This document shows positions 271 through 8,227 of a DNA stretch of 64,000 nt, piece after piece. Under the pieces are notes generated by a model. It saw only the letters and a list, made by a program, of their open reading frames with translations, was not told the origin of the DNA and did no database searches. The translations under genes were made by a program, and so were the position numbers. This DNA is from Scatophagus argus. Its lineage: Eukaryota; Chordata; Actinopteri; Scatophagidae. The stretch lies in the NCBI RefSeq assembly GCF_020382885.2, contig NC_058513.1, positions 5,967,408-6,031,407 on the forward strand, read 5' to 3'. Position 1 is the stretch's first letter. Every line of letters starts with the position of its first letter.

Positions 271-3200
271 ATGCCCTACCACTGTGTGGCCTATGGATGT
301 GGCAAAACTGCAGAAGATGGTGTGACGCTTTTTAAATTCCCCAAGGACCCTGAGGAGTTTCGCAAATGGGAGAAGCAGGTTCAGCGCACCCGCTCCCAGT
401 GGGTCGCCACTCCCAACTCATACCTCTGCAGCGAGCATTTTGGCAAGGAGTACTTTGAGCCCAAACCATTCACAGGCACTCTGAAGCTGAGGCCAGGAGC
501 TGCTCCTACAGTCTTTGTCCGTCCTCACTGTCAGTCCTGCAGCGGAGTGGGCTGTAGTAAGTGCCTGCCTACTATACAACAGCGGGGTGTTACAGCTGAA
601 CCAAAAGAGCTTAGTGTAAGTTTTGGTTAAGTTATGATCATGGAAATTTCCCTGCAGAGAGAAAGCCAGAGTTTCTGTCATTCTGAGATGCTTTCAACAA
701 GCCTCTTAGTTGTTTACATGTATGGTGTAAAATAATAGTCATGTTCATGCTTTTAATTTACAAGTCTGTTTTTCTTTCTTTCTTTTTACAGGCAGAATAC
801 GATGAAATGGTGTCCATTCCATTCCAGCCATCTGGGGATACTGATAACGAAGAACATTTGACAGGAGGAGGGGTGAAACCCAAAGAAAAAAACCGAGAAG
901 AACGACCAGGTGAAGAGACGAGAGAACAAAGATTAACAGACTGTTTGTTCCTTTAAAGTTTGATAAAGACAGTCAAAATTCTTCACAAAACACGTGATTT
1001 ATTTGTCTTTACAGTGGTGTGTGAGATGTGTGGCAGCACTGGCAATATCAGCACCTTCTTTTCAAAAACCAAACGTTTCTGCAGTGCATCCTGTTCACGG
1101 TCCTATTCATCAAACTCCAAGAAGTCCTCCATACTGGCACGTCTGCAGGTGAGAACACAACAGACAAAGCAAAGCTGAATGACGAATTTGTTTTCAGGGA
1201 TGTTATTTTATGTGACATTTTTCTTACGTGGATGATAAAAGATTTTGTGGTGAGGATTAGTACATGCTAGTGTTTCTTGGTACGGTTTTACAGCTCACAC
1301 TGAGCCACAAATGCCTCCCAAAAGCAAAGGTTTATGCGCACATTATAGACATCAAGGGTTTTTCTTTTCCAAATTTCCTTTGTGTCTGTGGTTTAGTCAG
1401 ATCTGCTGTGCATACCATTACTCTGTTATACACTAAATTTGACATAGGTTACAAACTTATCATCCAGAGGTAGTATTGTTTTCCAATTCTGTACCTTCTT
1501 AAATTGTTTATTGTATAGAAACCATTTCTTTCTACCACACCTCCACTGGTGCTTGTAGACCAGTGACAGTCAATTGTTGGATGCCACTCTGTGATACTTT
1601 ACTGTTCTTCATCCTAATGTTCTTTATTTCCCAACTCCTGTCCTTCCTCTCGAGGCACAGAGAACTGCTAGTACTACTGACACCTTTGTTCCTGTTCCTC
1701 TCAGAGGCTGGACTGTACAGGCTCCCTCAAAGCTTCTACATCTCTCTTATATCAGGTAGACGGTCTGTGCAGCCAGATTTGAGTACTTCAAACCTTTACT
1801 CTTGCAAATAGCTATCATCAGCAAAGCTGGAGTAAAAGCAACAGTGCATTTCAATTGTTTTCGCGATACACAGTGTCAGCAGTGACCTTAAAATTGGAGA
1901 CTTATAAGTTTTGCATGCAATTAAAATGCTTGCTTGACAGGTGTAAGCACAGAGTTTAATGGAGTACGTGTAGTGTTGAAGGAATGTGAAACAACGTTAA
2001 AGACACATTGTCAAGACTTTAAAGGGCTAATTAATTAATAATATAATCCTGACATGCTGGCGTAGTCCAGATATTTTTCTAGTTATATGTAACTATAGTT
2101 GTAATTTGTTTCCAATTCTGTTACATATTAAGACCAGAAATACGACAGTGTTGACATTCCTGGAAAAAGTGCAATAAAGAGGAAAAACATATTTGAAAAG
2201 TCTTTCTTTGTAGGAAGAGAAGTTGTGCAGCAGTGAATTTAGTCCCAAAGAAGCACATTTGACACATGTTCTGTTTTACCATTTTAAAGCTGATGCAAGT
2301 CCTTGTTTTCACTTTCATAATAAATGATGTTCGCCTGTGATTACTGAACCAAGTCAGAGCATTGGTGTGCACACAGTTCAGCTTTGACAGCAGTTGTTGG
2401 ATTTGATTCATGACTCTCCTCCCCTGTGATACATGCTAACAAACCAACAGACATGTACAAGCTTCTTTTATATTTCTGTCTCTCCAGGGAAAGCCCCCCA
2501 CGAAAAAAGCCATAGTGCTGAATAAGGTGAACAAAACCCCTCCGACCCCAACAGGACTGGATGGTGAGGGTGTTGAACACATCCAGACACACAGGCAAAT
2601 AAGTGTTGTACACACACACACACCATAAAAACATGGTTTATGATTCCTCTGTTCTTTCCATTCTGTAGGGTCTTCTGCAGGTTTTGAGTGGGAAACCTAC
2701 TTGGAGAAGGAAGAATCTTTGGCTGCGTCAGTGTCCTGCTTCAGACATGTGAGTTCTATCTGTCAAGTTAAGCCAACCTTTGTCAGCATTTATACATGCG
2801 CATTCAGAGCCTTTTAAAAAGCTTTTTTCTACCCCAGTGAGGCATTTTTCAGTAGCTAACTAAGGCAATAGTTTGGTAGTTAGTATCTTAATTAACCCAA
2901 AGTATGGAAAAACTGAACAAGGTAGTACGTATTACTATGGTGAGGATCACATATGGTAAAACAATAAGAGGTAAACTCTTGACCATCACTGAGATTAAAA
3001 TCTTGAAATTCCTGGGGAAGATATGGATGTGGAGCACATGAAACACCTCTCATTGATTTGATCTGATCTGAACCCACCCCGCCTGCAGGCGCCCCTGTGT
3101 GCACAGTGGGATGACGTCATTGTGGGAATGAAGGTGGAGGTCCTGAACACAAACGCAGTCCTGCCCAGCAAAGTCTACTGGATTGCTACTGTCATCCGCG

Positions 3201-6200: not shown

Positions 6201-8227
6201 GAAAACGTATGTCATGTTACAATGTGGACACCTGCGGCTTATAGTCAAGTGTACATATATATGTACAAATATATGTATATTTTTTTTTATTTGGTGGGTT
6301 CGGCTTATACTCAGGTGCGTTCTATAGTCCAGAAATTACGGTAGGTAGTCTGTAAAAGACATAAAGGGGGATCTCATCTTAAACACACTAACATCTGCAC
6401 TGATGTCTCATTTCCTGTCTCTGTCTCTTTTTTTGTGTTCGACTCTGCCGCCCTCCCTCCTCCCAGGTGCTGTTAGATGGCTACCTGATGGTGGGTATTG
6501 ATGGCACCATATCAGACAACGGCTCTGACTGGTTTTGTTACCACGCCTCATCTCATGCCATCCTTCCTGTAGGTTTCTGTAAAAAGAATGACATCCCTCT
6601 CACGGTACCACAAGGTGAAAAAACACATCCCTATTCATCATTTGCTGCTGTGTTCTTGATAGCTGTTGTCAGTTCATGCCACAAAAAGGAAAATAACTCA
6701 AGTAATCAATGAAATTACTTTTGTCTGTGTCTCGGCAGGTTATGACTCTCAGACCTTCACTTGGGACAAATACCTGAAGGAGACCGAAGCTAAAGCTGCA
6801 CCAGCGTATCTGTTCAACACTGTAAAGACAAGAAGTCCAAATCTAGTGCAGCATTTGAAGTTGTGCTTTCTGTTTAGAAGTTTATCAGTGTGATCACACC
6901 TACAGTTTGCATGCCTTAGTCACATCTTGCAACTTGAAAGGCTTCCATGAATGTTGTTTAACCTTAATAAACATATAAAGTTCATTAAACATCCTATGAT
7001 CCCATTGCTCCAGGACTACCCGGGTCACGGTTTTTCCCCCGACATGAAGCTGGAGGCAGTGGACTTGATGGAGCCGCGCCTGGTGTGTGTGGCCACCGTG
7101 AAGCGCTGTGTGGGCCGTCTGCTGCTCATCCACTTTGACGGCTGGGAGGACGAGTTCGACCAGTGGATCGACCATCAGTCCCCAGACATCTACCCCGTTG
7201 GCTGGTGCGAGCTCGTGGGCTACCAGCTCCAGCCGCCTCCTGGACTCGGTAAACACCTCATTTAATAGCAATGCCCTCCAGTGTGTTGTAGAGTTGATGT
7301 TAAGTCATCAAGTGGGCATGTGAGCCAGTTTACTGCGATTAAGGTGTTACATTAATTCTGACTGAATGGTAATTGGGCTATTGGTGCAATTAAAGACCAA
7401 ATGAGGCAGAAAACTGTCCCTGTTTACATCATCAGTTTGTGTCTGTAACCTCTACTCTGTCGCTGCCTCAGAGGAGCAACGAGAGTCTCTGAAAGTGTTT
7501 TGTTCTGTTTTCCAGTTGATTTAATCGAAAACCAGACGGCACAGAATAAGAAAAGCAAGTCCTCTCCATATGGGAAAAAGAGTAAGTTTTGACTCAGAAA
7601 TGTATGTGAAATAATTTGTCCAAAACCAGATTAAAAATCACATCAGGTGCTATTACATCTGACAGCTTCAGAACTACTCTTTCACCTCCTTGTAATGTTT
7701 TAGAAAAGAGAAATGCAAAAAAGAGACTCTCACAGGACCAGGCTAAAGATGACGGGCAGCAGTCTGAGGTCATTGACACTGAAGCGCCTCTCATCCAGCC
7801 CAAGACTGAGCCAGAGGAGCAGGAGAGTAAGTGGACAAACTCGTGCCACATGCGGTTCATTACTTCTAATTTTTGTGAGACAAGTTTTCTAATGTGCTGA
7901 CTTAATTCTATGTCTGTAGTCTTTGCAGTGCAGGTGAAAGTAGAGGAGATGGAGATGGAGACTCCCATTGATCCTCCAGACAACCTCAAACAAGTCCCTC
8001 TGGGTATGATCAAACAGGAGGAGGGAGGGGAGCCGAGTACATCAGGACTACCAAAGCCACTGAAGAAGTGCAGCTTGGAAAACACAGCACAGAAAAAGAC
8101 GAGTGTGGAGAAGAATGATAACAGAAAAAGCAGTGGAGTAGAAAAGAGTCAAAAGTTGGACCAAGACGAGGGGAGCCATGGAGAGGACAGCGTCATGGAG
8201 GAAATTTCAGAGAGCAATACAGAGTAG
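271..8227 (+). CDS. l3mbtl2: L3MBTL2-like chromatin repressor with N-terminal THAP domain
   Basis: Seventeen coding exons join in phase to 826 residues: 271-615, 792-909, 1015-1148, 2488-2563, 2669-2748, 3089-3206, 4195-4329, 4557-4645, 4802-5048, 5474-5544, 5621-5725, 6467-6614, 6739-6821, 7014-7248, 7516-7581, 7704-7826, 7920-8227. Residues 1-82 form a THAP finger (C5, C10, C53, H56, then AAPTVF). An FCS zinc finger follows (C157, C160, C177, C181), then four MBT repeats at about 229-330, 337-447, 472-580 and 584-661, with repeated DFWC/GWC-type motifs. The basic, acidic tail has VKVE and IKQE, fitting the sumoylation sites known in mammalian L3MBTL2. The mammalian protein is a subunit of the PRC1.6 repressor complex and binds nucleosomes. 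From the FCS finger onward the match is strong; the THAP exon is the unusual part. DNA binding by it is inference. Confidence 0.93.
5823..6343 (+). mobile_element. Degenerate pogo-like DNA transposon relic in l3mbtl2 intron 11
   Basis: The segment is bounded by imperfect inverted repeats (CCGTATTTTCCGGGCTATAA at the left, the complement of CCGTAATTTCTGGACTATAG at the right) flanked by TA. Inside, an ATG at 5991 opens a helix-turn-helix reading ([19 protein letters not shown]) typical of pogo/CENP-B-type transposase N-termini. A TAA at 6099 interrupts it where a glutamate is expected. The same frame continues ([14 protein letters not shown], then [10 protein letters not shown]) and runs directly into the right end, so the catalytic part is deleted. 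It is a dead, non-autonomous copy. The family name is from recall and was not checked by search. Confidence 0.7.

Follow-up and report, generated by a model that had tools for sequence, protein, structure and literature searches.

Does L3MBTL2, a subunit of Polycomb repressive complex 1.6 (PRC1.6), carry a DNA reader of its own in fish? Mammalian L3MBTL2 starts with an acidic region and is not known to contain a THAP domain, to recognise a DNA sequence or to have a reader of its own. The question is raised by the l3mbtl2 locus of Scatophagus argus (+ strand, 271-8227), which lies in the window analysed here, a stretch of 64,000 nucleotides (nt) from contig NC_058513.1 (assembly GCF_020382885.2, positions 5,967,408 to 6,031,407 of the forward strand). 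The first coding exon of this gene appears to encode a THAP zinc finger, and we consider it probable that the L3MBTL2 of this fish would use this finger as a cis-acting DNA reader that helps to place PRC1.6.

The THAP exon and the l3mbtl2 reading frame

The gene model was built by hand, exon by exon: 17 exons, separated by introns that all carry GT-AG borders, were joined in phase into a single frame of 826 amino acids (aa), from the ATG at 271 to the stop codon at 8225-8227. A previous sequence-only reading of this stretch had described a C2CH THAP finger (C5, C10, C53, H56) that ends in a consensus donor at 615/616 and is joined in phase to an acidic exon, the FCS finger and four MBT repeats. 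The same residues stand in the translation of 271-630, and the consensus donor is present at that position (TAGT/gtaagttt). The in-phase join is possible through GT-AG introns; exon 2 is only mildly acidic.

Searched alone against Pfam, exon 1 matched the THAP profile over residues 5-82 (profile positions 1-87, E=2.9e-17, 63.6 bits; cut-off 23.9). The joined 826-aa protein matched it at the same residues (E=7.4e-16), followed by zf-FCS_1 at residues 155-185 (E=1.9e-15) and four MBT stretches (E=2.6e-91). In L3MBTL2 the domain layout is an FCS finger and then four MBT repeats. In a paralogue comparison restricted to proteins in the PDB, the best match of the body was human L3MBTL2 (3cey, 648 bits), ahead of MBTD1 (558 bits) and fly Sfmbt (462 bits). 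Judged by domain layout and best match, the gene that carries the THAP exon is l3mbtl2, the identity that the sequence-only reading had given it.

The nearest solved structures of the THAP exon were human THAP2 (40.2 bits, E=2.6e-9), THAP1 (32.4 and 31.5 bits, E=6.8e-7) and then THAP11 (16.7 bits). The hallmarks of the family were present in the translation: the C2CH zinc ligands, the FP and W positions and the C-terminal P-T-[IV]-F box (APTVF). By these marks, the THAP finger of this gene is intact. THAP1 DNA-contact residues were not found by literature search and no contact residues were assigned in the fish finger; a single-sequence AlphaFold prediction of the THAP exon, made without an alignment (predicted local distance difference test score 34.7), was not used.

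Coding potential was scored with a codon model whose coding side was trained on exons 4-17 and whose non-coding side was trained on introns 2-16. Exon 1 scored +26.8 bits in its own frame and -4.6 and -24.2 bits in the other two. Control windows of exon-1 length (n=134, best frame of each) had a mean of -51, a standard deviation of 13.6 and a maximum of -20.4, a gap that is in-sample and flattering because the controls were drawn from the introns that had trained the model. On these scores the THAP exon looks coding.

Without splicing, the THAP open frame continues to a stop codon at 628-630 and a product of 119 aa is possible; the exon could then be a separate small THAP gene, lying just upstream of l3mbtl2 in the same direction. 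This is very improbable: the consensus donor precedes that stop, the join to exon 2 is in phase and intron 1 measures 176 bp. In addition, neither AATAAA nor ATTAAA occurs in the window at 1-1919, hence none at 630-1919, so that nothing suggests that a separate THAP gene ends before exon 2. The separate gene was rejected on the donor, the in-phase join, the short intron and the missing polyadenylation signal. Downstream of the l3mbtl2 stop, five such signals were found within ~1.1 kb.

In the 10 kb upstream, the only coding start recognisable by eye was that of EP300, on the opposite strand. The region from L009:9301 to window position 300 (1,000 bases) was scanned for donors, and a single site reached at least 8/9: AAG/GTAAGC (8/9) at L009:9458/9459, ~0.8 kb above the THAP ATG. 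This donor may end a non-coding first exon, in which case the THAP-coding exon would start at 181, after a candidate acceptor at 180/181. The features of the gene are collected in Table 1.

A motif resembling the ZNF143/THAP11 promoter site was observed at L009:9410-9428, ~0.84 kb above the THAP ATG and 30 bases before the upstream donor. It agrees with the consensus of that site at 16/19 positions, and a shuffle test of the pattern is unfair because the pattern was written after the sequence had been seen.

Table 1. Features of the hand-built l3mbtl2 gene model (positions in the window)
Feature	Position	Strand	Details
THAP-coding exon 1 (candidate 5' end)	181..615	+	in-frame stop 256-258, ATG 271, donor 615/616
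THAP C2CH zinc finger, residues 5-82	283..516	+	Pfam PF05485 E=2.9e-17; THAP2/THAP1 structures
Cysteine-rich tail of the THAP exon, CX2CX4CX2C, beyond the Pfam match; perhaps a second small zinc site	523..585	+	
Exon 2, mildly acidic 39-residue linker	792..909	+	10 D/E vs 5 K/R
Exon 3, FCS-type zinc finger	1015..1148	+	PF21319 E=1.9e-15
Exons 4-14, linker and four MBT repeats	2488..7248	+	PF02820 E=2.6e-91, four stretches
Exons 15-17, tail with SUMO-type motifs VKVE (residue 730) and IKQE (residue 755)	7516..8227	+	stop 8225-8227

Origin of the THAP exon and the THAP fingers of E2F6

A THAP family search of the 571-Mb genome, which misses split THAPs, reported at least 65 stretches. From these, a given exon is expected to have ~6e-5 same-strand THAP stretches in the 1 kb before it, and chance placement of the THAP beside l3mbtl2 was rejected on this expectation. 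The 46 MBT matches of the genome were grouped by us into 11 loci, and a THAP lay within 0.7 Mb of 1/11 (l3mbtl2, at a distance of 3.9 kb; the next nearest was at 0.78 Mb). For the ten remaining MBT loci and for ten E2F loci, only the distance to the THAP matches was compared; the missing THAP beside these loci is weak evidence, because split THAPs escape the family search.

When the THAP exon itself was searched against the genome (E up to 10), it matched itself and 28 remote THAP-like stretches. The best three of these were 38, 43 and 43% identical to it, and the first (E=7.7e-6) holds a stop. Because the best other THAP stretches are only 38-43% identical, recent copying is disfavoured, and the exon appears to be no recent copy of another THAP reported in this genome. 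Of the two origins offered by the sequence-only reading, an ancestral architecture lost in mammals and a fusion with a THAP gene in fish, either may be true. Pattern matches to relatives of the THAP exon were confirmed in 0/1 cases in viral contigs and 0/24 in genome contigs, and those to relatives of the last MBT exon in 0/6 cases in viral contigs.

The exon might also be a domesticated or decaying piece of a P-element-like transposon that stands in frame by accident, as the stop-containing THAP fragments scattered through the genome would suggest. We find this hardly credible, since the 29 matches reported include no close copy (the best apart from the exon itself is 38% identical, E=7.7e-6), the exon has no stop and shows coding bias in its own frame, and the joined 826 aa hold no P-element-type transposase domain (Pfam, E up to 0.01: only THAP, FCS and MBT). 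Recent transposon capture was rejected, with no close copy in the genome and no transposase domain; an ancient P-element-like origin of the exon is possible. THAP stretches with stops and of similar extents were seen on contigs C2, C4, C9, C10, C16 and C17 and perhaps form a repeated family of transposon type.

E2F6 was examined because mammalian PRC1.6 contains E2F6/DP. An E2F family search gave 14 matches, grouped by us into 12 loci, and genes were classed by their best match among segments of human E2F6, E2F4 and E2F1. Two E2F6 genes were found on contig C19, at ~834.7-839.0 kb and 1799.3-1802.6 kb, ~0.96 Mb apart (160 and 134 bits to the human E2F6 segment; next 100 and 84 bits). Both have a THAP spread over two exons (GT donor, AG acceptor, in phase) upstream of the E2F winged helix. 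The joined THAPs matched Pfam with 49.7 bits (profile 1-84) and 45.2 bits (profile 1-61 of 87), above the same cut-off of 23.9. They had been missed by the THAP family search because they are split over two exons. CC-MB was recognised through a Pfam match in one gene and through likeness in the second. The donor of the second THAP exon (AAG/GTGGAG) fits the phase of the E2F-exon acceptor in 2/2 genes, so that THAP can be joined directly to E2F in both; there may also be further exons between. Around the matches of the THAP family search (30 loci in all), 20 regions, each 10 kb long, held no E2F domain.

Between the two E2F6 genes the THAPs share 81% identity; with the L3MBTL2 finger they share only 25-27%, so neither THAP kind is a recent copy of the other. 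From these comparisons, two PRC1.6 subunits, L3MBTL2 and E2F6, appear to carry different THAP fingers. Both would be PRC1.6 subunits with an N-terminal THAP; they differ in that the E2F6 THAP occupies two exons whereas that of L3MBTL2 occupies one, besides their low identity. A THAP on zebrafish E2F6 was reportedly described in the first THAP papers.

No paper on a THAP-L3MBTL2 chain was found by a literature search whose coverage left out most subscription papers, and no related paper on THAP with E2F6 was found by the same means (judged by title). A survey of transposon-derived factors across animals contains, in its accessible part, 29 mentions of THAP and 0 of MBT (PMC10027918). Each part is known singly; the THAP on both E2F6 genes of Scatophagus argus is new here, beyond what the sequence-only reading could see. 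Automatic fish protein annotation may already show the THAP-L3MBTL2 chain.

Gene neighbourhood and transposon-like stretches

Neighbouring genes in the window and 20 kb upstream were named by eye; we take them to be EP300 (divergent, upstream), L3MBTL2, a leucine-rich-repeat gene (CHADL), RANGAP1, ZC3H7B, TEF, PHF5A and ACO2. The human gene order is presumably the same (EP300-L3MBTL2-CHADL-RANGAP1-ZC3H7B-TEF-PHF5A-ACO2). Ten pieces of these neighbours were searched against Pfam: six were above the cut-off (four leucine-rich-repeat pieces, PHF5 and Aconitase_C), one zf-CCCH match was below it and three pieces had no match.

The L3MBTL2 of this fish shares with the mammalian protein the FCS finger, the four MBT repeats and, presumably, the SUMO-type motifs of the tail and the gene neighbourhood; it would differ in starting with a THAP, which the mammalian protein is not known to have. 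The fish VKVE and IKQE motifs are presumably the counterparts of human lysines 675 and 700. At these two lysines, human L3MBTL2 is reported to be SUMOylated (PMC3950706).

Two further stretches were observed in the window. Within l3mbtl2 intron 11, positions 5825-6345 look by eye like what is left of a transposon: the ends seem inverted (ccgtattttccggg...), and an open frame at 5919-6101 is helix-turn-helix-like. On the - strand, an open frame at 44077-44559 resembles, by eye, the N-terminal part of a Tc1-type transposase.

A proposed sequence reader in PRC1.6

Mammalian PRC1.6 includes MGA/MAX, E2F6/DP, L3MBTL2 and PCGF6 (PMC5806899). The sequence-only reading had credited sequence recognition in this complex to partners such as MGA and E2F6, and the published accounts likewise credit MGA/MAX and E2F6/DP (PMC5806899, PMC9122586). 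In human cells, the presence of PRC1.6 at a subset of promoters is described as dependent on L3MBTL2 (PMC5806899), and it is here that a DNA reader would be of use.

The proposed mechanism is as follows: the THAP-FCS join would be used in transcripts, and the THAP finger would bind a short DNA site, by which L3MBTL2 would gain a sequence reader in cis. The finger would help to choose or hold the promoters where PRC1.6 places histone H2A monoubiquitinated at lysine 119 (H2AK119ub1), while the MBT repeats would hold histone tails and partner subunits would bring the ubiquitin ligase. With the E2F6 THAP, which is of a different line, two subunits of fish PRC1.6 would carry THAP readers.

Comparable arrangements are known from other animals. 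In Drosophila PhoRC (Pho + Sfmbt) the reader is a separate protein, whereas the fish reader would act in cis and have a fold other than that of Pho. The likeness is that an MBT protein is put on DNA by a sequence-selective partner (PMC9122586). In C. elegans, the THAP proteins LIN-15B and LIN-36 work on germline or cell-cycle genes for DREAM, a repressor linked to E2F; they differ from the fish case in that they cooperate with the complex, and the accessible part of that study shows no fusion of THAP to MBT or to an E2F subunit (PMC8552245).

The worm proteins also bear on the chief alternative to a sequence reader, according to which the THAP exon is real and within L3MBTL2 and serves as a protein-contact or stability module. 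As described there, LIN-36 without its THAP is undetectable and LIN-15B without its THAP still localises, and its authors propose that contact with DREAM may run through THAP domains (PMC8552245). In the fish finger the zinc ligands and conserved THAP fold residues look intact, which fits DNA binding, although a contact module with this fold could retain them as well. We judge the contact or stability module to be unlikely.

Several points weigh against an L3MBTL2 that always carries its own reader into a fish PRC1.6. Exon 2 scored higher in another frame (7.2) than in its own (6.5), and the score of exon 3 was no more than 0.6; because these two hardly stand out, the codon model is weak for short exons. 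PMC7230241 states that evidence for PRC1.6 in teleosts is lacking; zebrafish orthologues of E2f6, L3mbtl2 and Mga are listed in PMC9916924. Finally, an in-frame ATG stands at 807 in exon 2, and a THAP-less isoform from an upstream exon is therefore possible. The gene could then make two isoforms, the THAP form and a mammal-like form starting from exon 2 or another first exon, since the donor of the putative upstream non-coding exon could be joined to either 181 or 792. By eye, frames of at least 70 aa in the 10 kb upstream and of at least 40 aa at 616-791 included no further recognisable coding first exon, although short exons would escape this search. The two-isoform arrangement, which is compatible with a THAP reader on L3MBTL2, is somewhat doubtful.

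Beyond the THAP reader on L3MBTL2 itself, a wider scenario is offered as tentative: L3MBTL2 and E2F6 may have gained unrelated THAP readers separately, fish PRC1.6 may recognise THAP sites in addition to those of the E-box, T-box and E2F kinds, and mammals may have lost both readers. If this is true, the dual THAP loss would help to explain the reader-less, L3MBTL2-dependent targeting seen in mammals. The means by which variant PRC1 complexes reach their promoters are still debated as an open question; a natural L3MBTL2 that has a finger of its own, beside an E2F6 that has another, makes it testable. Fish PRC1.6 may read more DNA words than mammalian PRC1.6, and the fish and mammalian complexes may not be interchangeable.

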